DNA from: Salicibibacter cibi
GTDB lineage: Bacteria; Bacillota; Bacilli; Bacillales; Marinococcaceae
Assembly: GCF_016495865.1 (NCBI RefSeq)
Contig: NZ_CP054706.1
Location: 744,001 to 808,000 of the forward strand
Reading direction: 5' to 3'
Length of the DNA: 64,000 nucleotides
In this document: positions 11,544-27,703 of the stretch, one piece after another
Numbering within the stretch: position 1 is the first letter of the stretch
How the letters are laid out: the number at the start of each line of letters is the position of its first letter
Position numbers and translations under genes: made by a program
The notes under the pieces: generated by a model
Database searches by the model: none
Told to the model about the DNA's origin: nothing
The model's input: the letters and a program-made list of their open reading frames with translations, nothing else

Positions 11544-12725
11544 CTATGTTGTTTTAGATGAATATTGATACCGAAATGCTTGTTGGTAGAGATCAATGAT
11601 CTCGTCTTTTGCCGGTACTTTGGGGTTGTTGGCGGGACTTCCGCTCATGAGAGCGTCTTCCGCCATTTTCGGACATGCCTGTTCAAATGCTTCCTTGTCG
11701 ATGCCCCATGAGCCCAAGTTGGGAATGTTTAATTCCTCGCAAAGGGTAAGAATACGATGAACAAGGATGTCCGCGCCTTCGTTTGGTGATTCGTCTTTTA
11801 ATTCGGGGTAGACGTGAGAAGCCAGTTCATGTAAACGTTCTTGGCAAGAATCTTTGCTATATTCCAAAACAACAGGCAACAACATGGCGTTGGAAATGCC
11901 ATGAGGAACATGAAAAAGGGCACCAATCGGCCTCGACATGCCGTGGACAAGGCAAACAGAGGCGTTGGAAAAAGCCATGCCGGCTTGCATGGAGGCAAAC
12001 ATGGTATTGGCTCTCGCTGTCCTGTTGGATCCATCTTGGTAAGCAGTTTTCAAATTTTCCATGATTAATTGAAAAGAAGATCGGGCGAGCTGATCTGTGA
12101 ACGGATGGGCGCGTTTGGAAATGTAGGCCTCCAGTGCATGGGTTAATGAATCGATGCCGACAGCCGCTGTCGTGTTTTTCGGGGTGGAAATGGTAAGGAG
12201 CGGATCGACGATCGCTATCTTTGGCATAAGTGCGGGTTGCTTGATCATCATTTTAATTCCGTTATTTTTATTCGTAATCACAGTGGCATCGGTTGCTTCT
12301 GAACCGGTTCCGCCGGTTGTCGGAATAGCGATTAACGGGAGCCCATCATTTGAGGCGATTGTTTTTTGGTTCATGTAATCGCTCACAAATCCGCCGTTTG
12401 TCATGACGACCGATACCGCTTTTGCCGTGTCGATGCAACTGCCGCCGCCAATGCTGACAATAAGATCACAAGCAGCTTCTCGGCAAATAAATAACGCCTC
12501 ATCGACGTATGCGTCGGTAGGCTCCGATTCCACGCCTAGATAAGTAATGACGTCAATGCCCGCTTCTTCCATTAGCTGGCGACAGACCGAAACATTTCCT
12601 AGTTCTTCCATGATCTGATCGCTGATCAAAAGCGCGCGTGTTCCTTCCTGTCGCGCGATCTCTCCCACATTCTTCAAGCTGTCTTCCCCATAGACGACTT
12701 GTCTCGGAAAATGCATAGTATACAT
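11544..12725 (-). CDS. Iron-containing (group III) alcohol dehydrogenase
   Basis: A 393-residue NAD(P)-dependent dehydrogenase. The N-terminal nucleotide site has SIGGGSCIDTAKAV and IAIPTTGGTGSEAT; the iron site has Asp in GIDSLTHALEAYISK with its His, and later histidines in LVHGMSRPIGALFHVPHGISNA, which is the family signature. The ATG at 12725 is preferred over the GTG three codons upstream because AAAGGTG is then 6 bases away. First gene of an operon with gntP. Group III enzymes oxidise short alcohols, diols or 4-hydroxybutyrate; here the product would be an aldehyde or semialdehyde for the neighbouring pathway (inference). Confidence 0.9.
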   Translation of the reverse strand: MYTMHFPRQVVYGEDSLKNVGEIARQEGTRALLISDQIMEELGNVSVCRQLMEEAGIDVITYLGVESEPTDAYVDEALFICREAACDLIVSIGGGSCIDTAKAVSVVMTNGGFVSDYMNQKTIASNDGLPLIAIPTTGGTGSEATDATVITNKNNGIKMMIKQPALMPKIAIVDPLLTISTPKNTTAAVGIDSLTHALEAYISKRAHPFTDQLARSSFQLIMENLKTAYQDGSNRTARANTMFASMQAGMAFSNASVCLVHGMSRPIGALFHVPHGISNAMLLPVVLEYSKDSCQERLHELASHVYPELKDESPNEGADILVHRILTLCEELNIPNLGSWGIDKEAFEQACPKMAEDALMSGSPANNPKVPAKDEIIDLYQQAFRYQYSSKTT

Positions 12726-12765
12726 GGTGATCACCTTTCTTTTATCAAATTCGTACCCACGATAA

Positions 12766-12782
12766 ATGCAATTTCTATGCCG
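12766..12782 (-). promoter_or_regulatory. Sigma-54 (-24/-12) promoter for adh-gntP
   Basis: On the minus strand: cGGCAT, 5 bases, TTGCA. GG and GC elements are spaced as in the TGGCAC-N5-TTGCA consensus; two mismatches outside the invariant bases. It lies about 45 bases upstream of the dehydrogenase start. Confidence 0.75.
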
Positions 12783-12818
12783 TTACCAAGATATTTAGTG
12801 AAGTGGTTGATTTTGTGT

Positions 12819-12903
12819 TTATACAAGTATGCGAAGATAGAACAAATGGGCATGGACATTTTTGTTTAACAGTAGTGTCTATACACTTATACAGTTATAC
12901 ATC
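12819..12903. promoter_or_regulatory. Candidate activator binding region (TATACA repeats)
   Basis: Three TATACA hexamers at 12880, 12888 and 12896 repeat every 8 bases, with a fourth at 12820. The region lies between two divergent sigma-54 promoters at the distance usual for upstream activator sites. A single TATACA also occurs upstream of the enoyl-CoA hydratase promoter (about 27636). Binding is inferred only. Confidence 0.4.
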
Positions 12904-13024
12904 TCTTGCTTTACACGGTTTGAAATAATCAGAAGGTGGAAGGGGATTTTCGGTTACCTTATACAGATAGAATTAAAATCCGTTATCTCTTCTTTTTTAA
13001 TGAAAAGTCACGTTTTCTAATATG

Positions 13025-13040
13025 TGGCACGGGGTTTGCA
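13025..13040 (+). promoter_or_regulatory. Sigma-54 promoter for the acyl-CoA synthetase
   Basis: TGGCAC (13025-13030), GGGGT, TTGCA (13036-13040): a perfect match to the sigma-54 consensus, 41 bases before the start codon. Confidence 0.9.
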
Positions 13041-13080
13041 TAAGAAATGGATGACATTGTTTATATGAGGAGGTTGACCG

Positions 13081-14667
13081 ATGAATGTTCAAGATTTGAT
13101 TGCGCCAGCCCAGTATAATATTGCTGATGCGGTGGCGAAATTCGCAGAAGGCCCTAACCGTACGGCAATTCGTTGGAAGAATGAGCAGGGAGACATTCGA
13201 GAAGTTTCCTATTCGGCGTTGGCCGCAAAAACAAATCAATACGCACATGTGTTACGGCGTTCTGGGCTGGAAAAAGGGGACAGAGTTTTAATTATCCTGC
13301 CTCGAATTCCTGAGGCCTACATCACTTATCTTGCTTGCCTCAAAGCCGGTTTGGTTGCCATTCCATGCTCCGAGATGCTTCGAAAAAAAGATCTGGAATT
13401 TCGAATGGAACACTCCGGGGCGAGAGGGATTGTGGCTTATGATCAGGCAATTGCCGAAGTCAATGCCATCGAGAACGGTCATGAAGCACTCGAGCGGAGA
13501 TTTATTATTGGACAAAAGGTTGATGGATGGTCCTCGATCGAAGAACTCGCCGAGAAAGAAAACGAACAATACGAGGGTGAAAAAACATCGAGAGATGACA
13601 TGGCTTTCCTTTCCTATACATCCGGGACAACGGGGAATCCCAAAGGTGTCGCCCACACACATGGATGGGGTTATGCTCATGTAGAGACTGCTGCAAAAAA
13701 ATGGTTGAACGTGAAGGAAGGAGACCTCGTTTGGGCAACAGCCGCACCCGGATGGCAAAAGTGGGTCTGGAGCCCCTTCTTGTCAACGATCAGCCTTGGA
13801 GCGACAGCGTTTGTTTATCACGGAGGTTTTAATCCAGACACTTATTTACAATTATTGGAAAAAGAAAAAATTGAAGTATTATGCTGTACGCCGACCGAAT
13901 ATCGTTTGATGGTGAGTGTCGATGATCTTAAAAGCTACGATCTTTCAAATCTGAAAAGCGCGGTTTCTGCGGGCGAACCTCTCAATCGCCCCGTGATAGA
14001 AGCTTTTCAACGAGCCTTTAACATTAATGTTCGTGATGGTTATGGGCAAACCGAAAACACATTGCTTGTAAGCATCCAAGAAGGCATGGACATCAAACCG
14101 GGATCCATGGGTACGCCGACACCGGGCAATCAAGTCGAAGTGATTGATGAGAATGGGGCCCCTTGTTCAACGGGAGAGGTTGGGGACATTGCCGTTCATA
14201 AAGATTCTCCGGCTCTTTTTAAAGCTTACTATCGTGATCCTGAGCGAACGCAAGCGACTTATCGAGGCGACTGGTATTTAACTGGGGACCAAGCTTTCCG
14301 GGATGAAGATGGTTATTTTTGGTTTGTAGGCAGAAGTGACGACATCATCATTAGTTCCGGTTATACCATCGGCCCATTTGAAGTGGAAGATGCCTTGGTA
14401 AAACACGATGCAGTAAAAGAGTGTGCGGTCGTCGGGGTTCCTGATGACATCAGGGGCAATGTTGTCAAAGCATATGTTGTGCTCCGGGATTCCGAAAGCA
14501 TTTGCAATCCTGAAGCGCTTATCACTGAATTGCAAGATCACACCAAACGTTTGACCGCTCCTTATAAATATCCGAGAAAAATTGAATTTATCGAGGAATT
14601 GCCCAAAACGACCTCAGGAAAAATCAGACGCATTACACTCAGGAATGAAGCAAAAGAGACGACGTGA
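13081..14667 (+). CDS. Acyl-CoA synthetase (AMP-forming, medium/branched chain)
   Basis: A 528-residue adenylate-forming enzyme that converts a carboxylic acid to its CoA thioester with ATP. Visible motifs: the P-loop SYTSGTTGNPKGVAHTHG (about 178-195), VRDGYGQTENT (A5 core, about 318), WYLTGDQAFRD (A7), GRSDDIIISSGYTIGPFEVE (A8 hinge), and the C-terminal catalytic lysine in TTSGKIRR. The sequence is closest in character to MACS/ACSM-type enzymes acting on medium or branched short chains. It is a single-gene transcript under a perfect sigma-54 promoter and ends just before the activator gene. Isobutyrate is a reasonable substrate given the neighbours, but propionate, butyrate or 3-hydroxy acids cannot be excluded. 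Confidence 0.88.
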   Translation: MNVQDLIAPAQYNIADAVAKFAEGPNRTAIRWKNEQGDIREVSYSALAAKTNQYAHVLRRSGLEKGDRVLIILPRIPEAYITYLACLKAGLVAIPCSEMLRKKDLEFRMEHSGARGIVAYDQAIAEVNAIENGHEALERRFIIGQKVDGWSSIEELAEKENEQYEGEKTSRDDMAFLSYTSGTTGNPKGVAHTHGWGYAHVETAAKKWLNVKEGDLVWATAAPGWQKWVWSPFLSTISLGATAFVYHGGFNPDTYLQLLEKEKIEVLCCTPTEYRLMVSVDDLKSYDLSNLKSAVSAGEPLNRPVIEAFQRAFNINVRDGYGQTENTLLVSIQEGMDIKPGSMGTPTPGNQVEVIDENGAPCSTGEVGDIAVHKDSPALFKAYYRDPERTQATYRGDWYLTGDQAFRDEDGYFWFVGRSDDIIISSGYTIGPFEVEDALVKHDAVKECAVVGVPDDIRGNVVKAYVVLRDSESICNPEALITELQDHTKRLTAPYKYPRKIEFIEELPKTTSGKIRRITLRNEAKETT

Positions 14668-14674
14668 TGAATGG

Positions 14675-14703
14675 TTAAAGTTGCAACGTTTTTTTAGTAT
14701 AAT
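14675..14703 (+). promoter_or_regulatory. Promoter of the sigma-54 activator gene
   Basis: TATAAT (14698-14703) with a weak -35 TTAAAG (14675-14680) at 17-base spacing. Confidence 0.6.
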
Positions 14704-14706
14704 ATT

Positions 14707-14720
14707 AGTAAGCGCTTGCA
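14707..14720 (+). promoter_or_regulatory. cre site (CcpA operator)
   Basis: AGTAAGCGCTTGCA; its reverse complement TGCAAGCGCTTACT matches the cre consensus TGNAANCGNWNNCA at all but the last fixed base. It starts 4 bases after the -10 box, covering the transcription start, where CcpA represses by blocking initiation. Confidence 0.65.
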
Positions 14721-14730
14721 ATCTTTTGGC

Positions 14731-14764
14731 ATGTAAGAAAGTAAAAATCAACTTTCTTACATGC
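14731..14764 (+). terminator. Leader hairpin, possible attenuator
   Basis: ATGTAAGAAAGT pairs perfectly with ACTTTCTTACAT across a short A-rich loop. No T run follows, so this may be a stabilising leader hairpin, a weak terminator of the synthetase transcript, or both. Confidence 0.45.
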
Positions 14765-14766
14765 AT

Positions 14767-14820
14767 AAGTGCAACTAAGGCTTTCGCCATAAACCTTGGC
14801 GAAAAGCCAAGGTTTCTAAA
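14767..14820 (+). repeat. ~50-bp dispersed repeat, copy A
   Basis: AAGTGCAACTAAGGCTTTCG at the left end and AAGCCAAGGTTTCTAAA at the right. TTTCGCCA (14782-) can pair with TGGCGAAA, while ACCTTGGC can pair with GCCAAGGT; the two hairpins exclude each other. It lies in the leader of the activator gene. Confidence 0.7.
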
Positions 14821-14835
14821 AAGGTGAGGGGTCGG

Positions 14836-16581
14836 ATGCAAATGATTTCAAATGATCACGTCAAGCAATGGATGAATCTACAGCCGGTTACATTGTCTAA
14901 GGAAGATACGCTTCCGGAAACGCTTGTGCTTTTCTCGGAAATTGCAGACAAGGAATTGCCTGTCGTGGAAAATGGTCATTTGCTCGGGGTCATCACTTTG
15001 CAAGATTGTGTAACGTATTTATACGAAAAAAACGACATTTTATGCATAATGAAAACCGATTATTACGCCGTTAGTGAAGATTTTTCATTAAATGATAAAA
15101 AAACACCGGAACGACCGCTCTATGTCCTTCATGAAAAAAACGGTGCCCTGGAAGGTGTGGTCGGGAACGAGGAAATGATCGCTTATTACGAATACGTGCG
15201 GGAGCGAGAGAAAGATGCCAGGCAAACGATTGAATGGTTGAAACTTGGGTTTGACACGGCGTACGAAGGAGTTGCCATTGTTGACGAAAAAGGGACGATA
15301 CTGTTGTTTAATGAGTCGTACAGCCGTTATGTCGGGGTAAGCAAAGAAGAAGCTTTGGGGAGGCCGGCAGCGGATGTTATCGAAAATTCACGCTTGCCAG
15401 CCGTACTGAAAACTGGTGTTCCAGAACGAAGCCAACCCCACCGATTACAGGGGCAAGAATTGGTCGTTCACCGTTTGCCGATTTGGAAGAATGGCCAGGT
15501 CATCGGTGCGGTCGGAATTTTGGTTTATGAAGGTATTTCCGAGATCCGGCAAGTCCTTCAAAGGATGGAACGTTTGCAAACAACAGACAAACAATCTGAA
15601 AAGCAAATGAGCCGAGAACCGCTCGCCCAAGGGCCGACGCATTTTGACGATATTATCGGGGAAAGCCCCGGAATTTCGAAAGCAAAAAAGATCGGAAGAA
15701 AAGCCTCTAAAGCAAAAGCAACGGTTTTAATAACGGGAGAATCTGGCGTTGGCAAAGAGCCATTTGCCCGTGCCATTCATGAAGATGGGAGTAGAAGCAG
15801 TGGCCCATTCGTGGCCGTGAACTGCGCGGCAATCCCGGAAAATCTTTTGGAATCGGAATTATTTGGTTATATGCAAGGGGCATTTACCGGGACACGCAAT
15901 AACGGCAAACCGGGGAAAGTTGAACTGGCAAGTGGCGGAACCTTATTTTTGGATGAAATCGGAGATATGCCCCATACTACTCAAGCAAAAATTTTACGGG
16001 TTCTGCAAGAAAAAGAAGTTGACCGCGTGGGAGGAACCACCCCGATTCCCGTCGATTTCCGCCTCATCGCGGCGACGAATAAAGATTTAAAAAAACAGAT
16101 GGAAGAAGATAAATTCCGGGAAGATTTATTTTATCGCCTGCACGTGATGCCGCTTCATATCCCGCCTTTAAGGGATCGGAAACAGGATATTCCTTTAATT
16201 ATTGCTGATCGGCTGCCGAAATTAAGTGAGGAAAACGAAACGCAGGAAACGACGATTGAAAAAGAAGTCTTGGAAAGGATGTTTCAATACGATTGGCCGG
16301 GGAACGTGCGAGAGTTGTTAAATGTTTTAGAGCAAATGTTCCATTTATGCGAGGATGATCACATTCGACTCGAAGATCTTCCGGATGGTTTCAATGAACA
16401 AACTCAAGTGACTGAATCTTTAAGTGAGTGGCAGGAAAGAAAACAAAAGCAAGAAGAAAAATTTGAACGAAAACAGATCGAGAAGGTTTTGGGAGAAGTA
16501 GATGGCAATAAATCAAAGGCAGCGAAACGCTTAGGGATCTCTCGGGCGACGTTATATAATAAACTTTCCCGTTTTTCGTGA
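14836..16581 (+). CDS. Sigma-54-dependent activator, CBS-PAS-AAA+-Fis
   Basis: An enhancer-binding protein of about 581 residues. Order: a CBS pair (about 6-120), a PAS domain (about 135-235, [15 protein letters not shown] and [14 protein letters not shown]), the AAA+ domain with Walker A GESGVGKE (301-308), the sigma-54 contact loop GAFTGT (348-353; the usual form is GAFTGA), Walker B TLFLDEIG (369-376), the sensor ATNKDL and the arginine-finger region FREDLFYRL, and a C-terminal Fis helix-turn-helix ([21 protein letters not shown]). The frame is open from a GTG at 14824; ATG 14836 after GAGGGG is preferred. The four -24/-12 promoters around it make it the likely local activator. The effector, perhaps an acyl-CoA, acid or nucleotide, is unknown. 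Confidence 0.9.
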
Positions 16582-16594
16582 CGGTTTGGAAGTA

Positions 16595-16610
16595 TGGCAC
16601 AATTATTGCA
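16595..16610 (+). promoter_or_regulatory. Sigma-54 promoter for the usp-mmsA operon
   Basis: TGGCAC (16595-16600), AATTA, TTGCA (16606-16610): perfect consensus, 31 bases before the usp start and just after the activator stop codon. Confidence 0.9.
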
Positions 16611-16640
16611 TTTAAATTAAGGGAAAGGAAGGTGATTGAG

Positions 16641-17078
16641 ATGTATAAAAAAATTTTAGTTGCTGTGGATGGATCAGTACAGTCCGAACAAGCGTTGGAT
16701 AAAGCTATTCAATTGGCAAAACTCCACGGTGCATCATTGACAATCGCGCATGTTGTTGATATTCGAAATTTCTACACACAGGATTATACCCCTCAATCGT
16801 TGTATGATGAAACAGAAAAAAAAGCGGAGCAAATGCTAAAAGAATATAAAGAAAAAGCCGGTGATGAAGGATTGAAAGATGTAGAAACATTATTGAGATC
16901 CGGAAATCCACGAAATCAATTAACCGGAAAACTACTCACCGAAAATGACGTCGATTTATTGGTCACCGGTTCCACCGGCCGCAATGCCTTTGAACGAATG
17001 CTGATTGGCAGTGTGGCAGAAGCCTGTGTGCGACACGCATCTTGTGATGTAGTGACTGTGAGAAGCGCGCTCACATAA
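16641..17078 (+). CDS. Universal stress protein, UspA family
   Basis: A 145-residue alpha/beta nucleotide-binding protein. The N-terminal strand YKKILVAVDGSVQSEQAL and the C-terminal ATP motif G-S-T-G-R-N-A-F-E-R-M-L-I-G-S (G-x2-G-x9-G-S) are complete, so it should bind ATP. The ATG at 16641 follows GGAAGGTG; the open frame extends further upstream through the promoter. It is the first gene of the operon, 36 bases before the acyl-CoA dehydrogenase. Usp proteins often accompany catabolic operons under sigma-54 control, possibly as energy sensors (inference). Confidence 0.92.
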   Translation: MYKKILVAVDGSVQSEQALDKAIQLAKLHGASLTIAHVVDIRNFYTQDYTPQSLYDETEKKAEQMLKEYKEKAGDEGLKDVETLLRSGNPRNQLTGKLLTENDVDLLVTGSTGRNAFERMLIGSVAEACVRHASCDVVTVRSALT

Positions 17079-17113
17079 GCCAATGATAAAAGCCGATTAC
17101 AAAAGGGGGTCAG

Positions 17114-18778
17114 ATGATGAGCACACGGTTATCGGGAACACCTTGGTGGGAGGATCTATTGGACTATCCCGACATTTTCACACCGGAAGACTTAACCGAG
17201 GACGAGGTCATGATCGCGAAAACGACGGAAAAATTCGTGGAACAGCAAATCCTTCCGAATGTGGAGAGCTTGGAACTGCATGATTACCAAAAGGAGCAAG
17301 AAACATTTGCGGCAGCGGGCGAGCTCGGACTTTTAGCTATTGAAATCCCGGAAGCTTACGGGGGGCTCGAACTCGGCAAGCACGTCGCCGGGCTGGTAGC
17401 CGAAAATATCGGGAATGGCGGAGGTTCGTTCAGTGTCTCCTATAACATTCACGCGGGCGTCGGTACGTCTCCTTACGTTAACTATGGAAATGAGGAACAA
17501 AAGAAAAAATATCTCTCACAGCTCGGAAGCGGAGCGTGGGTCGGGGCCTATGCATTAACAGAGCCGTCTGCCGGTTCCGATGCCCTTAAAGGAAAAACGA
17601 AAGCGGTATGGAATAAAGAGAAAAACGCATGGGTTCTGACGGGCGAAAAGCAATGGATAACGAACGCGAAACTTGCCCAAGTTTATGTCGTCTTTGCCAA
17701 TACTGATGCCGGCATGACCGCGTTTATCGTGGAAAGGGAGATGGACGGACTTTCCGTTGGCCCAGAAGAAAAAAAGATGGGCATTAACGGTACATCAACG
17801 GCCACGCTTATCCTCGATGAAGTAGCGGTTCCGCAAGAAAATATGCTCGGTGAGGTTGGAAAAGGACACAAAATTGCAATGAATACGCTCAACTTGGCAC
17901 GCTTAAAATTGTCCTTTGCAAATCTGGGCACAGCTAAACGGGCGTTAGAATTGAGCGTTAAATATGGAAAAGAACGAAAACAATTTCAGCAACTGCTCGT
18001 TGATTTTCCAATGATCAAGGAAAAAATCGCGACTATGAACACCGCGATCTTCGGTGTTGAAAGCTTGGTGTATCAAACCGCAGCACGTATTGACGATGCG
18101 TTGGAGAAAAGCAGCGAGCAAGATGCGCAGGCAGTCGTCGGCCAATTTATCGCCGAATGCGCCGCCGGCAAAATTCAAGGTTCGGAAGTGCTTGCAGCTG
18201 TTGCTGATGAAGCGGTTCAAATACACGGTGGATACGGATTTATGCAAGAATACGAGGTCGAACGGATTTACCGTGACGCTCGTATTAGCCGTATTTTCGA
18301 AGGGACGAATGAGATTAATCGACTGGCGGTGGCGAAGGATTTGTTTTCCCGATTCCGGGATCAACCGGTTGAAAAACAAATCGAAACCGACCGGAATGCC
18401 ATTTTTATTTTGGAAGCGGAGCGGCATTTTACTGATCTATTGAAAACAGGCGTAGCGAAAAATCAGGAATTCTCGCGTTTGGTTGCCGATATTTACAAGG
18501 AAATTAGTGTCATGCGCGCCGCTTATTTACGCACTGAAAAAGCAGGGAGCGGAGCTACGCTTAAGCAGTTGATGACAGATGTCATTTGCGAAGAAGGATA
18601 TGAAAAAGTGGAAAGGGATCTTATTCGGCTTTGGAGTGCGGTTGACGAAGGAGCGAAAGGACAAGAAATGATCGGAAGCATTCGCGCCCGTGCACATATG
18701 CCAGCTGCTGAAAACGTGTTGAAGAAAAAAAGAGACATTAGCGAGTACGTCATTACCGCTGGAAAATATCAGACGTAA
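17114..18778 (+). CDS. Acyl-CoA dehydrogenase with C-terminal extension
   Basis: A 554-residue FAD enzyme introducing the alpha-beta double bond into acyl-CoA. Family signatures: AYALTEPSAGSDA (about 150-162), QWITNAKLAQVYVVFANT, QIHGGYGFMQEYEVERIYRDARISRIFEGTNEI, with the catalytic Glu in FEGT. The last ~150 residues are a helical extension of the FadE/VLCAD type, so it is longer than classic isobutyryl-CoA dehydrogenases (about 380 residues). In this operon it probably oxidises isobutyryl-CoA to methacrylyl-CoA; activity on other chain lengths is possible. It is preceded by AAGGGGG and followed after 15 bases by mmsB. Confidence 0.9.
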   Translation: MMSTRLSGTPWWEDLLDYPDIFTPEDLTEDEVMIAKTTEKFVEQQILPNVESLELHDYQKEQETFAAAGELGLLAIEIPEAYGGLELGKHVAGLVAENIGNGGGSFSVSYNIHAGVGTSPYVNYGNEEQKKKYLSQLGSGAWVGAYALTEPSAGSDALKGKTKAVWNKEKNAWVLTGEKQWITNAKLAQVYVVFANTDAGMTAFIVEREMDGLSVGPEEKKMGINGTSTATLILDEVAVPQENMLGEVGKGHKIAMNTLNLARLKLSFANLGTAKRALELSVKYGKERKQFQQLLVDFPMIKEKIATMNTAIFGVESLVYQTAARIDDALEKSSEQDAQAVVGQFIAECAAGKIQGSEVLAAVADEAVQIHGGYGFMQEYEVERIYRDARISRIFEGTNEINRLAVAKDLFSRFRDQPVEKQIETDRNAIFILEAERHFTDLLKTGVAKNQEFSRLVADIYKEISVMRAAYLRTEKAGSGATLKQLMTDVICEEGYEKVERDLIRLWSAVDEGAKGQEMIGSIRARAHMPAAENVLKKKRDISEYVITAGKYQT

Positions 18779-18793
18779 ACGGGGGAGTTTTTT

Positions 18794-19702
18794 ATGAAGA
18801 AGATTGGTTTTATCGGCCTTGGAAATATGGGAATGCCGATGTCGGAAAACCTGGTAGATGCCGGCTACGACGTGTATGGGGTTGATGTAAACCATGAAGC
18901 GGAAACGCGTTTTGAAAAAGCCGGCGGACAGGTCGGACGTTCCATGGATGATTTGGCAAAATCCTGTGATGCGATTATCACCAGTTTGCCTTCGGTAGAA
19001 GCCTATGAATCTGTGTATCTCGGCGAAGACGGATTAGTTCGAAATAGCCACGAGAACATTCTGCTTCTGGACACAAGCACCGTGGCTCCGGAGAGCAATA
19101 AAAAAGTGGCCGAGGTAGCGAAGGAACAGGCTGTACGTTTTTTGGAAACGCCGGTGAGCGGGGGCGTCGTCGGTGCTGTGAACCGGACGCTGACGTTTAT
19201 GGCGGGCGGTTCTAAGAAAATTTATGATGATGCGTTTCCGCTTATGGATGTGCTTGGCGAGGATATTTTTCATATTGACGAACGAATTGAAAGCGGGACG
19301 CTGACGAAACTGATTAACAATTTGTTCATTGGTTTTTACACAGCTGGAGTCAGTGAAGCGCTTGCGTTGGCCAAAAAACAAAACATGGATTTGGATGCGC
19401 TGTTTAACGTGTTAAGTGTCAGCTATGGCCAGAGCCGTATCTATGAACGGAATTACAAAACTTTCATCGCCAACGATAATTACGATCCAGGCTTTACATT
19501 AAAGTTATTGCATAAAGATTTAAATTTTGTAAAAGAAACAATGACAAAAGAAAACCTCCACCTACCGGTGACAGACGTGTTATTGCAAGTTTATGAGGAA
19601 GCGAAAGAGGCAGGGTTGGGAGCAAATGACATGGCTGTGCTCTATGAGCATGTTGGCAAACAAGATATTTCATTTGAAGCGAAAAAGGAGCGAATAAAAT
19701 GA
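18794..19702 (+). CDS. mmsB: 3-Hydroxyisobutyrate dehydrogenase
   Basis: A 302-residue NAD-dependent beta-hydroxyacid dehydrogenase oxidising 3-hydroxyisobutyrate to methylmalonate semialdehyde. The Rossmann motif GFIGLGNMG (5-13), the substrate loop [11 protein letters not shown] (118-128) and the catalytic Lys172 in TLTKLINNL are all present. Its stop overlaps the ATG of the semialdehyde dehydrogenase by 4 bases (ATGA), indicating translational coupling. Context fixes the assignment more than sequence alone, since the family also includes tartronate semialdehyde reductases. Confidence 0.9.
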
Positions 19703-21156
19703 CCACGGATGTAAAAACAATGCGCAACGCGATCAATGGCGAATGGGTAGATACGGAGGGTGGTGTTACAGAATCGGTTCCAAACCCGGCAACCGGGGAA
19801 ACGATCGCCACAGTGCCAATCTCAACGGCGGCGGACGTTGACCGAGCGGTGGAGGCAGCGAAAGAAGCGTATGAAAGTTGGTCATTAGTGCCGGTGCCCG
19901 ATCGGGCGCGTTATATGTTCAAGTATTTACAGCTATTGAATGAACATCGGGAAGAATTGGGCGAAATTATCACGCTAGAAAATGGAAAAACATTGAAAGA
20001 TGCCCACGGAGAAGTGCAAAGAGGCATTGAAGTCGTCGAACTCGCGACATCGGCGCCCAATTTAATGATGGGGGATGCATTACCGCAGATTGCTCGCGGC
20101 ATTGATGGTTCGGTCTGGCGCTATCCTCTCGGTGTCGTCGCAGGCATTACACCGTTTAATTTTCCGATGATGGTGCCCTTATGGATGTTTCCGTTGGCGA
20201 TCGCTTGTGGCAATACGTTTGTTTTAAAAACATCGGAGCGAACGCCACTGTTAGCGGAGCGGCTCGTAGAATTGTTTTATGAAGCAGGCTTTCCCAAAGG
20301 CGTGTTAAACCTCGTTCACGGAGCAAAAGATGTCGTCAACCGTGTGTTAACGCAACCGGATATCGAAGCGATTTCGTTCGTTGGTTCCGAGCCTGTCGCC
20401 AAACATGTCTATGAAACCGGCACCGCCCATGGCAAGCGAGTGCAAGCATTGGCCGGAGCGAAAAATCATGCGGTCGTTATGCCGGGCTGCCATATGGAGA
20501 AAACGGTTGAAGGCGTCATAGGGTCTGCGTTCGGCAGCAGCGGCCAACGATGCATGGCTTGTTCGGTCGTGGCCGTTGTCGATGACATTGCCGATGAATT
20601 TATGGAGAATCTCACCGCCGCGACAAAAGATTTGAAGGTCGGGGATGGAAGATACGAAGAGAATTTTGTTGGACCGGTCATCCGGGAGACGCATAAAGAG
20701 CGGGTCCTCGGATATATTGACCAAGGCGTTCAGGAAGGCGCGGATCTCGTCGTTGATGGGCGTGATAAAGGAGCGGAAAAAGAACAAGGCTTTTATGTCG
20801 GCGCTACGATCTTTGACCATGTAAATACCGATATGGCCGTTTGGAAAGATGAAATTTTCGCACCGGTGCTTAGCGTTGTACGTGTCCGTGATCTTGACGA
20901 AGCCATCGCGGTAACGAACCATTCACGGTTCGCAAATGGAGCGGTCATTTATACGTCAAACGGCAAAGAAGCGCAAACATTTCGCGACCGTATCGATGCC
21001 GGTTTGATCGGCGTCAACGTTAACGTACCTGCACCAATGGCATTCTTCGCTTTTGCCGGCAATAAAGCGTCCTTTTACGGAGATTTAGGCACGAACGGGA
21101 AAGACGGAGTGCAATTTTATACGAGGAAGAAAGTCGTTACGGAGCGGTGGTATTAA
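19699..21156 (+). CDS. mmsA: CoA-acylating methylmalonate-semialdehyde dehydrogenase
   Basis: A 485-residue aldehyde dehydrogenase converting methylmalonate semialdehyde plus CoA and NAD+ to propionyl-CoA and CO2 (also malonate semialdehyde to acetyl-CoA). The nucleophile is Cys285 in the MMSDH-specific GQRCMA context, with [17 protein letters not shown] near residue 149 and the family's [13 protein letters not shown] replacing the usual general-base glutamate region. Last gene of the usp operon; a hairpin follows at 21172. It closes the valine/isobutyrate route begun by the enzymes encoded nearby. Confidence 0.93.
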
Positions 21157-21171
21157 ACAATTTAAATTGAC

Positions 21172-21415: not shown

Positions 21416-21432
21416 CTCATGGAGGTGGATTT

Positions 21433-21702: not shown

Positions 21703-23349
21703 ATGGAGGAAACCTATCAATTATCAAACCCAATATTTGGGGTAGTAGTCGTTCTAGTAACATTCGCCTTATTTTATGTGGTAAGTTACGTTTCTAATCG
21801 AAAACAATCTACCGTTGGAGATCTATACATTGCAGGTGGTAAAGTAGGCGCATTCACAAATGGATTAGCCATGTCATCTAGTTATATGAGTCTAGCTACC
21901 TTTTTAGGCATTACAGCCCTCATTCTTGAACTGCAAATGCCGTTAATTATTTTGTGGATTCAGCTAATCGTTGCAATCCCGCTAATTACGATTATTTACG
22001 GAACGAGCCTACGAAGGATGGGGGTAACGTCTCCAACACACTTTATTCGTGAGCGGTATGGTGTTAAAGCTTGTATTATCGCCGCTGTGTTTATGATTAT
22101 TGTTTCGATTATGTATGCGCTTGGGCAAATGATTGGGGTGGCGGCTGCCTTTGAGACGCTTTTAGGTGTTCCATATATTGCTGGGCTTTTTGTAGGGGGG
22201 CTGATCATTGTCGGGTATATAACCATTGGAGGGATGTCAGGAGCGACAACGAATGCAGCTATTCAAATGGTAATTATTGCGCTCATGTTTATCCTCCCTC
22301 TGGGTGCCATTATGAAAGCGTTAGGAGGAGACGGTTGGTTTTTCCCACCTCTTTTATATTCAGATATGGTTCCTGCTATGTTAGAAGCATTCCCAAGTTT
22401 TTTTGACTATGAATTTCCAACAAAGTGGTTTATTGCGCTTATACCGGCAATTACAATTGGGGCTTTGGGACTTCCCCATTTGGCTATGAGGGTCTATACT
22501 TCGTCTAGTTTAAGAAGTGCAAGGTCGGCAATGGTTTGGTACGCTTTTGTAACAGGACTAGTGTTTTCAGCTACTTACGCTATGGGATTTGTTGGCGTTT
22601 ATGCTACTGAAACTCAAGGATTATTTATTGAAGCCGGAGATGCTGACAGGTTAACGATGATCCTGAATATTGTGTATAACCCTGAATGGGTTGCGGCCTT
22701 AGTAATTGCCGGAGCTATTGCTGCAGGCGTCTCAACATTGAGCGGCAATCTTTTGTCGATTGGAGCTTTGTTATCGCAAGATATTATAGCAACGCTTAAA
22801 CCGGAATTAACGGAGAGAGCTAAAGTTCGTATGGGTTATTTAGCCATATTCCTAGGAGGAGTTGCCAGTATTCTTCTTGGTATCAATCCACCGGAATTCC
22901 TTACGATCAGTATATTCTGGGCTTTTGGCTTAGCCGGAGTAACCATTGCTCCACTCATCATCATGGGAGTATGGTGGAAGGAAACGAATCGCTATGGCGC
23001 AATAGCAGCCTCATCCATTGGCGGGGTCGTTTACATCCTTCTTTCGCCCTTCGTTGCTCCAAGTCTGGTTCTTACCGACCACGGTGTTACAAATGAGATG
23101 GGAATATCCGGCGCTATGTTTGCTGTTCCCTTAAGTTTTATTATTTTGATCGTTGTTTCCTATGTAACAAATCGCATGCCAAGCCTGTCAGAGAAATTGA
23201 CGACGAAAGTGGACCATGAATTAGTCGAACGGATACACGGTTGGAAGGATGTACAAGCTTATCGCTATAACAGTAAACTTGGACCAGTGATTGCGTTAGC
23301 CCTTAGTTTTGCTGTTGGTATATGGGCGCTTTTTCCTTGGGGGATGTAG
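21703..23349 (+). CDS. Sodium:solute symporter (SSS/SLC5), monocarboxylate type
   Basis: A 548-residue protein with about 13 membrane helices. SSS features: GDLYIAGGKVGAFTNGLAMSSSYMSLATFLG (residues about 36-65), where the ion- and substrate-binding helix 1 lies, the GLFVGGLIIVGYITIGGMSGATTNAAIQ segment, and AGAIAAGVSTLSGNLLSIGALLSQDI with the Na2-site serine/threonine cluster. Similarity in character is to ActP/MctC-type carriers of acetate, propionate or pyruvate. Placement between two parts of the isobutyrate regulon suggests import of a short branched acid, but its promoter is not clearly sigma-54 dependent. Confidence 0.87.
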   Translation: MEETYQLSNPIFGVVVVLVTFALFYVVSYVSNRKQSTVGDLYIAGGKVGAFTNGLAMSSSYMSLATFLGITALILELQMPLIILWIQLIVAIPLITIIYGTSLRRMGVTSPTHFIRERYGVKACIIAAVFMIIVSIMYALGQMIGVAAAFETLLGVPYIAGLFVGGLIIVGYITIGGMSGATTNAAIQMVIIALMFILPLGAIMKALGGDGWFFPPLLYSDMVPAMLEAFPSFFDYEFPTKWFIALIPAITIGALGLPHLAMRVYTSSSLRSARSAMVWYAFVTGLVFSATYAMGFVGVYATETQGLFIEAGDADRLTMILNIVYNPEWVAALVIAGAIAAGVSTLSGNLLSIGALLSQDIIATLKPELTERAKVRMGYLAIFLGGVASILLGINPPEFLTISIFWAFGLAGVTIAPLIIMGVWWKETNRYGAIAASSIGGVVYILLSPFVAPSLVLTDHGVTNEMGISGAMFAVPLSFIILIVVSYVTNRMPSLSEKLTTKVDHELVERIHGWKDVQAYRYNSKLGPVIALALSFAVGIWALFPWGM

Positions 23350-23377
23350 AAAATTATAAGATTGGGGGGAGAAAATT

Positions 23378-23938
23378 TTGATTGGAAAAATGATAGTATT
23401 GGAGCGAGATGCATATCAAACATTCATGGAAAGTCAAAAAGCATCGAAATACAGTCGAGCAACTTTAGTTATGGTGGGTGTTATCTATGGTATGATGGCT
23501 GTTATTGCTAATCTCCAATTTCTATCCGGTTTTGATTCCTTATTTTTGGGGTTTGTCATTGCGCCATTTTTATTAATTGCACTAGGCATATTAATGGCGG
23601 TTGTTACCAAATTTGGTTTGACATTACTTCTTTGGGCCGGCGCACGTGCCTTTGGTGGACCGGGGCGAATGAAGGAGGTAAATCAAATTGTTTCAATCTC
23701 TCTTCTTCCAGGGCTTTTAAGTGCGCCATTTCTTATAGGGATCGATATACTAAGTTTAAGCTTAATTTTGGTAATCATAGGACTATTCTTTGGGATCGGT
23801 TGGATGTATCTCATTTGTGTCAGAATAATAGAAACGACACAACAATTCTCCAAGGCGAAAGCTTATCTTTCTGTATTAGCTTCTTTTGTATTTTTTACGA
23901 GTGTGTACTATCTCATTTTACCAGTTCCGACTTTATAA
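23378..23938 (+). CDS. Yip1-domain membrane protein
   Basis: A 186-residue integral membrane protein with about five hydrophobic helices, beginning after a short cytoplasmic segment (IVLERDAYQTFMESQKASKYS). The layout and the RMKEVNQIVSISLLPGLLSAP stretch, with a conserved proline in the third helix, are those of bacterial Yip1-like proteins. It is 28 bases after the symporter and probably in its operon. Function unknown; membrane-protein partner roles are typical guesses for this family. Confidence 0.65.
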   Translation: MIGKMIVLERDAYQTFMESQKASKYSRATLVMVGVIYGMMAVIANLQFLSGFDSLFLGFVIAPFLLIALGILMAVVTKFGLTLLLWAGARAFGGPGRMKEVNQIVSISLLPGLLSAPFLIGIDILSLSLILVIIGLFFGIGWMYLICVRIIETTQQFSKAKAYLSVLASFVFFTSVYYLILPVPTL

Positions 23939-24048
23939 ACAACGAAGTGAGTTGTTAACCGAGTGATGGTAAAGGGACAAGAGTTCGAGGCTCGTGGTTT
24001 TCTGAATGTTTGTAAGTACCCAATCTTTTGGAAAGGGTAGATTATGAT

Positions 24049-24486
24049 ATGAAGTATGAGCAAATGCTAATAAATAAAGTTTATAAAACATCAACCTATA
24101 CGGTGACAAAAGATGAAATATATAACTTTGCTTTAAAATTCGATCCGCAATATATGCATATTGATGATGAGAAAGCAAGTAAAAGTATTTTTGGAGGAAT
24201 AATCGCTTCAGGACTTCATACCTTGAGTATCAGCTGGAAACTATGGGTTGATATGAATTTGATTGGAGAAGATATCATTGGTGGCGTCAGGATGGAGCAT
24301 GTAGAATTTTTAAAACCTGTCTACCCGGAAGATATATTAACTGTAAAAGCCCGCATTATTGATAAGCAAGAGCATAGTGACCAAAAAGATAGAGGGTATA
24401 TCTCAATTTTATTAAACACCTATAACCAAGATGAAAAAATGGTTATGAATGTAAAATTTCTTGGGCTAATAAAAAGGGACTGTTAA
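24049..24486 (+). CDS. MaoC-like (R)-enoyl-CoA hydratase
   Basis: A 145-residue single hot-dog-fold protein. The hydratase dyad region is visible as FALKFDPQYMHIDDEKA with Asp and His, followed by FGGIIASGLHTLS, the MaoC signature. It would hydrate short or medium trans-2-enoyl-CoA. The ATG at 24049 is preferred to the in-frame upstream codon at 24028, which overlaps the probable ribosome site GGAAAGGG. It follows the symporter/Yip1 genes and precedes a repeat-rich stretch. Confidence 0.82.
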   Translation: MKYEQMLINKVYKTSTYTVTKDEIYNFALKFDPQYMHIDDEKASKSIFGGIIASGLHTLSISWKLWVDMNLIGEDIIGGVRMEHVEFLKPVYPEDILTVKARIIDKQEHSDQKDRGYISILLNTYNQDEKMVMNVKFLGLIKRDC

Positions 24487-24585
24487 CACGGATATATAAT
24501 TGGAATTAAACGGAAAATAACAGCTGCGATGGATCAACACTAAAATCTATGGTCGACAAGCCAATGTATGGATGCTTGATCAGCG

Positions 24586-24715
24586 CTACGGAAAACACGA
24601 CGCTTTCCGTGGGCTCCCAGTCCAGCCTCCTCGGAAAAAGAAAATCGCTTTTTTCTGCGGGGTCTTCCCTTTGCGCTTCCCCACAGGAGTCTCCGTGTTT
24701 TTCCTCCGCTGGCTA
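24586..24715 (-). repeat. Solo palindromic repeat related to the MITE core
   Basis: Closed by GGAAAACACG (24590-24599) and CGTGTTTTTCC (24693-24703). Read on the minus strand it shares with the MITE interior, in the same order, GAGACTCC, ACCCCGCAG, CGAGGAGGCT and CGGAAAGCG. I recall repeats of this kind as very common between genes in Bacillaceae. It has neither the MITE ends nor a target duplication. Confidence 0.7.
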
Positions 24716-24800
24716 GTCACTATACTAAGTGTTCACTTTTATCAACGATAGATTTTGGTGAAGAGCCGCTGCGACAAGTAGCATATTAAAATGTTAGATT

Positions 24801-25087
24801 AGGGACTGCTGAATCACGGAAAAAGACTGGCACATAAGCATTTTCTGTTGGTGTTGTCAAAGTTGGATGCAAGGAAATCCATCCTATAAGCAAAAAAACC
24901 CTTGCACTTCTGGCAACATATGGAGGGACGGTGCTGCAATGGCGAGACTCTCGCGGAAAAACGGACGCGTCAAGACCCCGCACGCCGGTTTTGCGCGAGG
25001 AGGCTTGACCGTTCGTCCGCGGAAAGCGAAGCCATGGAAGCGGTATTCCGGCTTCAGCTGATAGCTGCATGTTATTCAGCAATCCCT
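24801..25087 (+). mobile_element. MITE copy 2 (intact, 287 bp)
   Basis: AGGGACTGCTGAATCA at the left and TTATTCAGCAATCCCT at the right form terminal inverted repeats of about 16 bp. A 5-bp target duplication AGATT lies at 24796-24800 and 25088-25092. The interior is non-coding. It sits between the MaoC gene and a terminator-like hairpin. Confidence 0.88.
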
Positions 25088-25095
25088 AGATTAGG

Positions 25096-25131
25096 GAAGC
25101 GAGGATTCTAAGCCTCGCTTCGAATCTTTTC
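25096..25131 (+). terminator. Intrinsic terminator displaced from the MaoC gene
   Basis: GAAGCGAGG (25096-25104) pairs with CCTCGCTTC (25113-25121), followed by GAATCTTTTC. The MITE and solo repeat now separate it from the MaoC gene it presumably served. Confidence 0.6.
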
Positions 25132-25154
25132 TTACATATGGTCGTCGTATGGAC

Positions 25155-25694
25155 CTAATATCCATCCCATATATCCAACATCTTCCACGTCGCAGCCCAA
25201 TCTTTTTTCATGACCCTTTCCCTGTATACAGCAAGCCGTTCCTCCGTTTCCATGAAAAAAGGCGTGGGTTGCACCGCCCCTTTAAGCACATCCTCCACTC
25301 CGCATGGAGCAACTAGCATCACACGGGCATCATCCCTCAGTTTCACGCCGATGGCAGTTGCCGTTTCCGGAAATTTGGAGATTGCGTCAACGGAGGACGC
25401 GTAAGGTGGGACGCCGTTCACAAGATGCATTCTCGCTTGATTTTTCACAGACCAAGGAATGGGAGGAAGCATGCTTCTCAGTTGCTCCTCCCGCTTCTTT
25501 TCTTCGCTTTCACCGATGCTTACAGGATCAAAATAGATGACATCTAGATCCGGCAAAGGTGTCCGTTTACGAAAGCCATGCAATGTATCCCAGATTTTCG
25601 CTCTCACAAAACCGGAGCAGATCCAGTCATCAGGCAACTGCAAACCCTTTACCGCCTCTAGAATATCCATCATCCACTGGTCGCGTTCAATCAC
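25155..25694 (-). CDS. Nucleotidyltransferase family protein (NTP_transf_6, DUF925)
   Basis: A protein of about 179 residues. The pattern WICSGFVRAKIWDTLHGFRKRTPLPDLDVIYFDP places the paired aspartates (DLDVIYFD) of the nucleotidyltransferase-like active site about 45 residues from the N-terminus, as in PF06042. The start is uncertain: the frame is open well into the upstream hydrolase gene, but homologues begin near here, and GTG 25694 or ATG 25673 would fit. It follows the hydrolase stop by about 20 bases and may be carried on the same transcript without sharing its function. The nucleotide acceptor is unknown. Confidence 0.75.
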   Translation of the reverse strand: MIERDQWMMDILEAVKGLQLPDDWICSGFVRAKIWDTLHGFRKRTPLPDLDVIYFDPVSIGESEEKKREEQLRSMLPPIPWSVKNQARMHLVNGVPPYASSVDAISKFPETATAIGVKLRDDARVMLVAPCGVEDVLKGAVQPTPFFMETEERLAVYRERVMKKDWAATWKMLDIWDGY

Positions 25695-25713
25695 ATAAAT
25701 AACGTCCGCTTTG

Positions 25714-26757
25714 CTATGAAGCTTCAAAAAACTGCGCCACCATCGCTTCTGAAACATCTGCCAAGCGTTTGTACGTGTAGTCTGGGCTTTGGCTCTTTTT
25801 GAAAATAACCGCTTCGACACCTTTGTAGAAATCGTCGTGCTTCAAAAAATTGACGGCAATAACGAGGTCCATCTCTAACGTTTCGGCGAGTGATTTGTTT
25901 TCACTGTCGATCATGTGTTTCAATGTTACTTTTTCGGAAACCGGTGATTTTGACAGCAATGTTTCTCGTGTTTCTGCAGCGAATGCTTCGTCCCCGCTTT
26001 CCAATTGTTCCACGATCTTTTCAATCGAATCCGCGTTAAAATAACGATCGATCGCTTCTTGCATGGAAGCAAGGGGTGCTTCTTCTTCCGGCGTACTGTT
26101 TTGTTCGGCGAGAATGTCATCGAGTTTGCCTGTTGGATCTGTTTTGTTCACCCAATCGATTTCATGCAACTTATCAAGTAAGTCCGTCAATTCCGAGACG
26201 TAATGCTCGGCCGCCCCTATATAGAGCACGTCCGCGGCTTTTATGGTTGCCGATGTCAAGGCAAGATAACGACCGGTATAGCCGGGGGCTTGGTTTAAAA
26301 GATGGACCGCACCCACATCCGGAAAGAAGCCGATGTTCATTTCCGGCATCGCCCATTTCGTACGGGCGGTAACAACCCGATGGCTTGCTCCTTGCGTGAG
26401 ACCGACACCGCCGCCCATAACGACGCCATCAAGGCAGGCGACGATCGGTTTCGGGTACTCCTTCACCATTAGGTCCACACGATATTCTTCCTTGAAAAAT
26501 TCCCTTGCCTTTGCGAACGCTTCTCCACCGTTTTGCGCTTCCGATAACGTTTTAATGTCACCGCCGGCACAGAAGCCTTTTTCTCCGGCGCCTTCCATGA
26601 CGATCACTTGTACGGAATGATCGTTGCGCCAAGCGTCCAACTGCTCCCCGATCGCTATAATCATATCGAGGCTTAATGAATTCAGTGCTTTTGGCCGATT
26701 TAATGTGATCGTTGCCAATCCTTTTCGGTTTGTTGAAAATGTAACTTCGTTTGTCAT
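25714..26757 (-). CDS. 3-Hydroxyisobutyryl-CoA hydrolase
   Basis: A 347-residue crotonase-superfamily thioesterase. Oxyanion-hole segments GFCAGGDIKTL (about 62-72) and CLDGVVMGGGVGLTQGASHRVVT (about 107-130) are followed by the HIBCH-specific WAMPEMNIGFFPDVGA, which distinguishes it from enoyl-CoA hydratases, and by the longer helical C-terminus. It frees 3-hydroxyisobutyrate from its CoA ester in valine breakdown, the step that supplies the dehydrogenase MmsB. RBS AGGAGGT; 9 bases after the upstream hydratase gene, so one operon. Confidence 0.9.
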   Translation of the reverse strand: MTNEVTFSTNRKGLATITLNRPKALNSLSLDMIIAIGEQLDAWRNDHSVQVIVMEGAGEKGFCAGGDIKTLSEAQNGGEAFAKAREFFKEEYRVDLMVKEYPKPIVACLDGVVMGGGVGLTQGASHRVVTARTKWAMPEMNIGFFPDVGAVHLLNQAPGYTGRYLALTSATIKAADVLYIGAAEHYVSELTDLLDKLHEIDWVNKTDPTGKLDDILAEQNSTPEEEAPLASMQEAIDRYFNADSIEKIVEQLESGDEAFAAETRETLLSKSPVSEKVTLKHMIDSENKSLAETLEMDLVIAVNFLKHDDFYKGVEAVIFKKSQSPDYTYKRLADVSEAMVAQFFEAS

Positions 26758-26766
26758 TTTTACCTC

Positions 26767-27555
26767 CTAGGAATGCCTAAAATCAGGGGTTCGTTTGTCG
26801 ATAAACGCCCGGACGCCTTCTTTACCGTCATCGCTGCAAAAGAGTTCGCCAAAGAATTGCTGTTCCCGCGCCAAGCTGTTTTCCGTTGAATCATCGATAC
26901 CTTTCATGATCGCCTCAACAGCCCGCTCGATGCTCGTCATGCTTTTGCCTTCAATCAGTTGCTCCGCAAAAGCGTGGGCATCCGCACGTACCGTTTCGCC
27001 CGAAACGATGCGTTGGACGAGGCCGAGATCAGCGGCTTCATTTGCTTTCATGTTTTTGCTCGTCAAAATAAATTCCATAGCCCGTGCCGAGCCTAAGTAC
27101 CTGCGCAAGCGTTGCGTGCCGCCGAAAGATGGGATTAAACCGAGTTTGAGTTCCGGCAAACCAAGCACCGCATCTTCGGATGCAAAGCGATAGTGGCAGG
27201 CCATGGCTACCTCAAGGCCGCCGCCTAAGGCCGCGCCGTTAATCGCGGCAACCACTGGTTTTTTTGATTGTTCAATTTCCTCACAAAGCTCCTGGCCGGC
27301 TCGGGAGATTTCCTCTGCTTTCGACGCGTCGTCAAACGCTTCTGCGAATTTTTTTATGTCGGCACCGGCGACGAAAAAACGTCCGGCACCTGTCAAAAGG
27401 ATCGCTCTCGTGTCTGGGTCATTAGACAATGTTTTAAAGACACCCCGCAACTCGTTGATTGAGTCTGGAGACAGTGTATTCGCCGGGGGATGGTCGATTT
27501 CTACCGTCGTGACAAAAGACTCTGTGGATACGTTTACATAGTTGTAGTTAGTCAT
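26767..27555 (-). CDS. Enoyl-CoA hydratase (crotonase)
   Basis: A 262-residue crotonase. Motifs: GRFFVAGADIKKFAE (oxyanion hole, about 58-72), AAINGAALGGGLEVAMACHYRFAS (about 104-127) and the catalytic-glutamate segment LGLPELKLGLIPSFGGTQRL with two glutamates in register. Predicted to hydrate methacrylyl-CoA (and other short enoyl-CoAs) to 3-hydroxyisobutyryl-CoA. First gene of the operon with the hydrolase, under a sigma-54 promoter; RBS GGAGGT. Confidence 0.92.
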   Translation of the reverse strand: MTNYNYVNVSTESFVTTVEIDHPPANTLSPDSINELRGVFKTLSNDPDTRAILLTGAGRFFVAGADIKKFAEAFDDASKAEEISRAGQELCEEIEQSKKPVVAAINGAALGGGLEVAMACHYRFASEDAVLGLPELKLGLIPSFGGTQRLRRYLGSARAMEFILTSKNMKANEAADLGLVQRIVSGETVRADAHAFAEQLIEGKSMTSIERAVEAIMKGIDDSTENSLAREQQFFGELFCSDDGKEGVRAFIDKRTPDFRHS

Positions 27556-27581
27556 AAAAAAACCTCCTTATGTAGCATAAA

Positions 27582-27597
27582 TGCAAAAACTATGCCA
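27582..27597 (-). promoter_or_regulatory. Sigma-54 promoter for the hydratase-hydrolase operon
   Basis: On the minus strand TGGCAT, AGTTT, TTGCA: one mismatch to TGGCAC-N5-TTGCA with correct spacing. It ends about 27 bases before the start codon. Confidence 0.85.
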
Positions 27598-27703
27598 AAT
27601 GAAAATACAACGCTTCCATATCCATTATACATGATTTGGAATTCTATTGGATAGGTATGATAGTATGGTTTCATAGAGAAGTTTCAAAGGAGGAGATTTT
27701 CCG

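Follow-up and report, generated by a model that had tools for sequence, protein, structure and literature searches.

Sigma-54 control of branched-chain amino acid use is known in Bacillus from BkdR, a regulator with two PAS domains that acts on the bkd operon (PMC4428206; the statements cited here and below draw on parts of each paper). The present work concerns a gene cluster in a stretch of 64,000 nucleotides of Salicibibacter cibi DNA (the window; positions 744001-808000 of a 3.81-Mb single-contig genome), in which the gene of an activator lies among genes for isobutyrate breakdown. Gene linkage and promoters that are both conserved, and an operator that in the genomes searched occurs at this locus alone, lead us to read the cluster as a sigma-54 regulon dedicated to growth at the expense of isobutyrate and of isobutyryl-CoA derived from valine, a reading to which we give a probability of about 0.8.

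Other described systems bear on single features of the locus. Clostridiales PrdR is among the groups whose sites are inverted repeats of TGT/ACA spaced 10-12 bp apart (PMC6615313). RocR acts from a site 1.5 kb downstream of the rocG promoter and is still partly active when the distance is 15 kb, and a single SoxR site serves three promoters (PMC4941409). In Staphylococcus aureus, MbcS is an activating enzyme for isobutyrate and 2-methylbutyrate (PMC10026030). Bkd genes belong to the sigma-54 regulon described for B. thuringiensis, with no mms or hibch genes in the parts of the paper covered (PMC4428206), and in an rpoN mutant of B. cereus genes for valine, leucine and isoleucine degradation are down, according to a supplementary table (PMC4524646).

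An earlier note on this DNA knew of no description of a dedicated regulon for the late steps with this activator. Searches of open-licence literature, in the portions covered, turned up no account of mmsA, mmsB or hibch within a sigma-54 regulon of Bacillales (the table of PMC4524646 might hold such genes), and in those portions sigma-54 control is described for the early (bkd) steps only. The regulon is therefore apparently undescribed. It would supply halophilic Bacillales with a regulator, an operator and a set of genes for the breakdown of isobutyrate and for the late steps of valine breakdown.

Gene order and linkage

The genes gntP-adh diverge from mbcS, which is followed by the activator gene, usp-acad-mmsB-mmsA and a symporter group of the SSS type, and then, on the opposite strand, by hibch-ech:

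10223..11515, minus strand: gntP-family permease, putative hydroxy-acid importer (presumed substrate; start uncertain)
11544..12734, minus strand: adh, iron-containing alcohol dehydrogenase, putative 3-hydroxy acid dehydrogenase (probable start the ATG at 12725)
13081..14667, plus strand: mbcS, short branched-chain acyl-CoA synthetase
14824..16578, plus strand: activator with CBS, PAS, AAA+ (with GAFTGT) and Fis-type helix-turn-helix (HTH_8) domains
16641..17078, plus strand: usp, universal stress protein
17114..18778, plus strand: acad, acyl-CoA dehydrogenase, putative isobutyryl-CoA dehydrogenase (substrate judged from context)
18794..19702, plus strand: mmsB, 3-hydroxyisobutyrate dehydrogenase
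19699..21156, plus strand: mmsA, CoA-acylating methylmalonate-semialdehyde dehydrogenase (MMSDH)
25714..26757, minus strand: hibch, 3-hydroxyisobutyryl-CoA hydrolase
26767..27555, minus strand: ech, enoyl-CoA hydratase

Linkage was followed in a family set of 29 genomes, 25 of which have an activator match at E 1e-100 or better. In ten of these 25, the window's included, a valine-type activator stands beside acad-mmsB-mmsA; the other nine activators are 54-93% identical to that of the window, whose genome has Geomicrobium and Natribacillus among its relatives. Ten further genomes, drawn from a named collection (five Virgibacillus, Oceanobacillus rekensis, Savagea serpentis, the Roseburia sp. 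1XD42-34 record, Terrilactibacillus and a Bacillales metagenome-assembled genome), supply ten further loci, which are what is left of 24 after removal of six repeats (L139-L142, L144, L152), five loci of the adh type (L153-L156, L158) and three distant ones (L159, L161, L162). With identity thresholds of 40% for core genes and 50% for others, acad, mmsB and hibch are each present at all 20 activator-bearing loci, mmsA at 18 and ech at 15, with mbcS at eight, adh at five, gntP at four and usp at two (the window and genome G022 only). At this locus the record titled Roseburia (L151) resembles Virgibacillus, and in the activator tree it falls together with Virgibacillus chiguensis; its name is probably wrong.

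Sigma-54 promoters

RpoN is encoded in the window's genome, and four -24/-12 sites lie at the locus, as the earlier note had held, with the adh site at 12767-12782 where the note gave 12766:

12767..12782, minus strand: adh-gntP promoter, CGGCATagaaaTTGCA (CGGCAT-N5-TTGCA), two mismatches
13025..13040, plus strand: mbcS promoter, TGGCACggggtTTGCA, no mismatch
16595..16610, plus strand: usp-acad-mmsB-mmsA promoter, TGGCACaattaTTGCA, no mismatch
27582..27597, minus strand: ech-hibch promoter, TGGCATagtttTTGCA, one mismatch

Each site ends 26-41 nt 5′ of a start codon. Matches with at most two mismatches number 34 in the window against 30.7 expected, which is no clear excess, so the adh site would have no meaning on mismatch count alone. 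The strict pattern YGGCAY-N5-TTGCA occurs 29 times in the genome, compared with 2 for the reversed pattern, and when 29 sites were placed randomly, some four fell inside 14.8 kb (the span of the window's four sites) in 95 of 20,000 placements.

It is because of conservation across the genus, not mismatch count, that the sites are judged to be real. Those of adh, mbcS, usp/acad and ech are retained in all three other genomes of the genus (G022, G023 and G024), and the CGGCA[CT] form is found at the adh promoter in all five adh-bearing valine loci, with the operator core upstream in each. Among the 20 activator-bearing genomes, a strict site precedes (usp-)acad in 15, with one mismatch in three more, and precedes ech or hibch in 14, with one mismatch in one more.

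The predicted operator

Alignment of the genus genomes revealed a block common to them (TGTCTATACACTTATACA, between adh and mbcS in the window), and TGTnTAnACAnnTAnACA is the likely binding site of the activator. Two operators are predicted in the window:

12876..12893, plus strand: principal predicted operator, TGTCTATACACTTATACA, with another TTATACA repeat after it
12816..12833, plus strand: weaker second predicted operator, TGTTTATACAAGTATGCG, with a perfect TGTNTANACA core and a position weight matrix (PWM) score of 14.1

The weaker (12816) and principal (12876) operators are 60 bp apart, and the same spacing is found in G022 and G024. At ten promoters of relatives the core lies 57-60 nt 5′ of the -24 element; elsewhere the distances differ.

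The strict 18-base operator has 16 matches in eight whole genomes, all 16 at the activator locus (2 for the reversed control), and 13 in nine further activator-bearing genomes, again all at the locus (3 for the reversed control). These 29 matches represent 23 places, since some overlap on two strands, and two of the 17 genomes, both among the further nine, have no strict match. The principal operator is the sole strict copy in the window's genome; none was found elsewhere in it, so no further regulon members were found in this way.

Composite patterns of core and promoter give a similar picture. The form core-N25..55-promoter was matched 16 times in the 29 family genomes, 12 of these matches being at the activator locus, and core-N55..85-promoter has five, four at the locus; the reversed control is 0 for both. 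In 299 genomes of the order an extended composite has two matches, against 0 for the reversed control, and both belong to the activator's clade. The genome of the window is not one of the two because its own operator lies outside that spacing. One short-composite match (G000:C1:2320219) lies about 0.5 kb from where a different activator's AAA domain is encoded; with a score of 4.0 bits it lacks the extended operator and was counted as a stray. The remaining off-locus matches, in G004, G006, G022 and G002, were likewise taken as strays.

A PWM built from 16 sites was tested on the ten loci outside the building set, where an operator of at least 18 bits lies within 300 nt at 12 of 15 sigma-54 sites, the 18-bit line having been fixed after the results of these loci were seen. 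The maximum in 1000 random sequences is 15.6 bits. None of 26 other sigma-54 loci in the window's genome has an operator (best score 9.7 bits), and in 12 of the adh-type loci, those of related activators, one of 13 sites (L090, 17.7 bits) exceeds the random maximum. The operator appears to be specific enough for regulon prediction in new genomes.

Enzymes and pathway

The steps from isobutyrate to propionyl-CoA follow a well-known order, along which the products of the locus can be placed. MbcS, which passes its model narrowly (NF047394, 858.3 bits; cut-off 850), would convert isobutyrate to isobutyryl-CoA. Acad would then form methacrylyl-CoA, and hydration by Ech (PF00378; cut-off of the best NCBIfam model not reached) would give 3-hydroxyisobutyryl-CoA. 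HIBCH (NF004127, 404.8 bits; cut-off 274) would release 3-hydroxyisobutyrate for oxidation by MmsB, and MmsA (TIGR01722, 607.6 bits; cut-off 448.5; solved match 1t90) would produce propionyl-CoA. Since MmsB does not reach the TIGR01692 cut-off (207.4 vs 291.6 bits), it is named from its context and from 5je8, a 3-hydroxyisobutyrate dehydrogenase that is by far its best solved match (E 1e-121). A second 3-hydroxyisobutyrate-dehydrogenase-like gene (27704-28564) diverges from ech; its best model is 2-hydroxy-3-oxopropionate reductase, with a score under the cut-off.

Isobutyryl-CoA would be supplied from isobutyrate by MbcS and from valine. The first valine steps seem to be encoded elsewhere in the genome, at a separate cluster in which a bkdR-like gene (690 aa) stands beside apparent bcd, lpdV, bkdAA and bkdAB genes (recognized by eye; E1 alpha by Pfam) and a sigma-54 site of its own. 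A regulon common to bkd and the present locus was considered and rejected, as the operator score at the bkd promoter is 0.5.

In the Savagea locus L150 (5043-8060) a symporter group, 68% identical to that at 21703-23346 of the window, has an operator on either side (16.5 and 23.9 bits) and ech-hibch as a neighbour, a hint that isobutyrate may be what the symporter carries.

Control of the usp and ech promoters

Several points weigh against the regulon reading, the late fixing of the 18-bit line being one of them. Acad (554 aa) scores just under the FadE model cut-off (576 vs 600), and its substrate is assigned from its neighbours. No promoter precedes acad in L150 and L160 (2 of 20 loci), both of which are also without mmsA at the locus; among the 15 test sites, that at L150 17727 has no operator and two are at 10-11 bits. 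In the window no operator of note is found within 1.5 kb of the usp-acad promoter, as is also the case in G022, and 5′ of ech the genus has only a bare core, inside the neighbouring gene. The earlier note's sigma-54 regulon from isobutyryl-CoA to propionyl-CoA, together with isobutyrate activation by MbcS, is supported by linkage, promoters and operator; the usp and ech promoters of the window are without a convincing local operator, and their control by the activator therefore rests on relatives.

The operator of acad lies directly 3′ of the activator gene in G024 and G023 and is gone in the window and G022, the two genomes in which usp sits between promoter and acad. For ech, matches within 1.5 kb are weak throughout the genus and mostly in coding regions; one of 15.2 bits lies in a tetR-like gene 1.4 kb from the window's ech promoter (10.7 in G023). 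The bare core, some 200-215 nt upstream of ech, is perfect in G023 (-212), has one mismatch in the window (-202) and G024 (-215) and is lacking in G022. It falls below the 4-bit listing threshold and was not counted as an operator. Also left uncounted was a dyad that all four genomes of the genus have in coding sequence about 170 nt 3′ of the ech promoter, with a score of 5-9. Outside the genus, all ten loci with a strict ech/hibch promoter have an operator of at least 18 bits upstream, one of the ten sites (G007) being a training site of the matrix, and ech-hibch would accordingly have been part of the ancestral regulon. For the wiring of ech-hibch in the window, a shared enhancer at 14.7 kb, another activator and a weak site are the candidate explanations.

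Perhaps the operator pair between adh and mbcS serves, in the window's genus, all four sigma-54 promoters of the cluster, which are from less than 0.2 to about 15 kb away; looping of the DNA would bridge 3.7 kb to usp-acad and 14.7 kb to ech. With such a distant shared enhancer, the acad and ech promoters could have lost operators of their own. The genome has a single strict operator, yet four promoters are kept across the genus, and RocR and SoxR are precedents for distance and sharing (PMC4941409). Against the proposal, an operator outside the genus is 36-238 nt from most such promoters, G024 and G023 have the local acad operator, and three of the four genus genomes have the bare core about 0.2 kb before ech. 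The proposal is therefore put forward tentatively, with the odds leaning against it. If true, it would provide one natural bacterial enhancer for several promoters. The cluster also offers a natural test of enhancer sharing: at promoters where its relatives carry an operator close by, the window shows no operator or just a bare core.

A further reading is that ech-hibch in the genus has passed to another sigma-54 activator, or has no need of a strong operator, with mbcS, adh and usp-acad staying under the present one. The -24/-12 site is kept in all four genus genomes while nearby operator matches are weak, and eight other activators above 200 bits are encoded in the genome. Against this stand the strong upstream operators in the ten loci outside the genus, and the fact that HIBCH is required by the pathway. 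An arrangement of this kind is conceivable and somewhat doubtful.

The activator and its leader

In the regulon reading preferred here, the activator would bind the TGTnTAnACAnnTAnACA operators and, once its CBS/PAS sensor is engaged, sigma-54 polymerase would be opened at the clustered -24/-12 promoters. A GAFTGT motif in an AAA+ domain together with a DNA-binding helix-turn-helix is the mark of sigma-54 activators (bacterial enhancer-binding proteins). The window's protein has both: PF00158 (AAA+) scores 230 bits, HTH_8, CBS and PAS domains are also found, and a second CBS repeat can be made out by eye only. GAFTGT is present in all ten activators examined, and CBS and PAS at the N-terminus in all 16 members tested, the window's included. 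A specific site near -24/-12 promoters can be recognized at the level of sequence only, two of the window's four promoters being without a convincing one. The genome has nine activators above 200 bits including that of the window, and the nearest others are about 490 and 550 kb away, in agreement with the earlier note, which had described the protein as the only enhancer-binding protein nearby.

Another sigma-54 cluster (G000:C1:2058741-2080785) has two activators and four sites; by eye, its genes encode an acyl-CoA dehydrogenase and proteins resembling a solute-binding protein, a phosphotransferase and an enoyl-CoA hydratase.

The leader of the activator gene contains one candidate element:

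14706..14721, plus strand: cre-like CcpA box, AAGCGCTT

A cre-like box about 30 nt before the activator is also found in G022, G024, G023, G017 and G007, and matches with at most two mismatches occur in five further of the 20 activator leaders, mostly at different distances. This suggests that good carbon sources may damp the activator's own gene. Between the box and the activator start the window has about 88 bases (approximately 14725-14815) that are not in the three other genus genomes; they hold two hairpin-like inverted repeats, CATGTAAGAAAGT...ACTTTCTTACATG and AACCTTGGC...GCCAAGGTT.

In three Geomicrobium-group genomes an operator of 21.9 bits lies 5′ of the activator gene itself (L079 5471, L080 14405, L081 14328), which suggests self-control; a -24/-12 site was looked for at these three places and none was found.

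The adh-gntP arm and the possible origin of the regulon

The earlier note had included adh-gntP in the set. These genes do appear to belong to the regulon in the window's genus, and adh also in Natribacillus; they provide no step from isobutyryl-CoA to propionyl-CoA. Adh reaches no NCBIfam cut-off. Probably the pair imports and oxidizes a related 3-hydroxy acid (3-hydroxyisobutyrate or 3-hydroxypropionate), ending at MmsA, since related activators drive adh-(gntP)-mmsA and in their loci adh adjoins an MMSDH gene. An order-wide profile search gave activator matches in 172 of 299 genomes. Twelve loci outside the valine clade were drawn from among the best-scoring of these matches, and each of the 12 has activator, sigma-54 site, adh and mmsA, and this type of mmsA passes the MMSDH model in three of three cases tested.

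A separate sigma-54 unit is widespread in the order (L082-L092, L153-L156, L158, L192-L203). It consists of an activator, a -24/-12 site and an iron alcohol dehydrogenase, often with a GntP permease and usually with MMSDH, and its substrate may be 3-hydroxypropionate. We know of no published name for the activator of the adh-(gntP)-mmsA unit.

The activator tree has 48 members, of which the 18 linked to valine genes fall into a single group (Shimodaira-Hasegawa-like approximate likelihood ratio test, SH-aLRT, 99). The two nearest non-valine activators (support 93) have adh-gntP and an mmsB-like gene as neighbours; the remaining ones have adh, mostly with mmsA. The tree was built by a quick method, four of its outgroup branches are long and its root is uncertain, and it was used for the unity of the valine clade; L157, L080, L139-L142, L144, L152, L154, L158 and the own activators of L002, L004, L005 and L008 are outside it. 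The simplest story would be that an activator of 3-hydroxy acid use later took over isobutyrate genes, both routes ending at MmsA.

The regulon might also be seen as serving mainly 3-hydroxyisobutyrate or 3-hydroxypropionate, with valine and isobutyrate secondary. The adjacency of the valine clade to adh-type activators in the tree and the adh-(gntP)-mmsA loci with their MMSDH matches are in keeping with this, but adh is present in 5 of 20 valine loci, compared with 20 of 20 for acad and hibch, and the proposal is unlikely. Finally, that the -24/-12 matches are chance or relics, with the genes transcribed from ordinary promoters, would fit the near-expected count in the window but was rejected as highly improbable in view of the genome-wide excess of strict sites over the reversed pattern, their conserved positions and the locus-specific operator.

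Comparison with known systems

The earlier note had counted the CBS-PAS activator as part of what it had not seen described. The activator is not a new type, since it aligns with PrdR over nearly the full length (NF041552; residues 11-584 with model positions 6-576 of 577, 490.4 bits), and the site spacing of the PrdR group recurs in the window operator as TGT-N12-ACA. The PrdR cut-off of 795 is not reached, however, and the neighbours of the window activator are isobutyrate genes, not prd. BkdR acts on early steps, whereas the window activator is of the CBS-PAS kind and no bkd genes are seen beside it.

The RocR and SoxR regulons likewise have clustered promoters with a far or shared site, but they serve arginine and sarcosine use. 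The activators of adh-(gntP)-mmsA are the nearest relatives in the tree and share the layout of activator, sigma-54 site and operon with MMSDH. They differ in their operator scores, which are at most 17.7 bits in 13 promoter sites, and the loci compared have no adjoining acad-ech-hibch set. Lastly, MbcS of S. aureus feeds fatty acid synthesis (PMC10026030), whereas the mbcS of the window lies in what is probably a regulon for breakdown.

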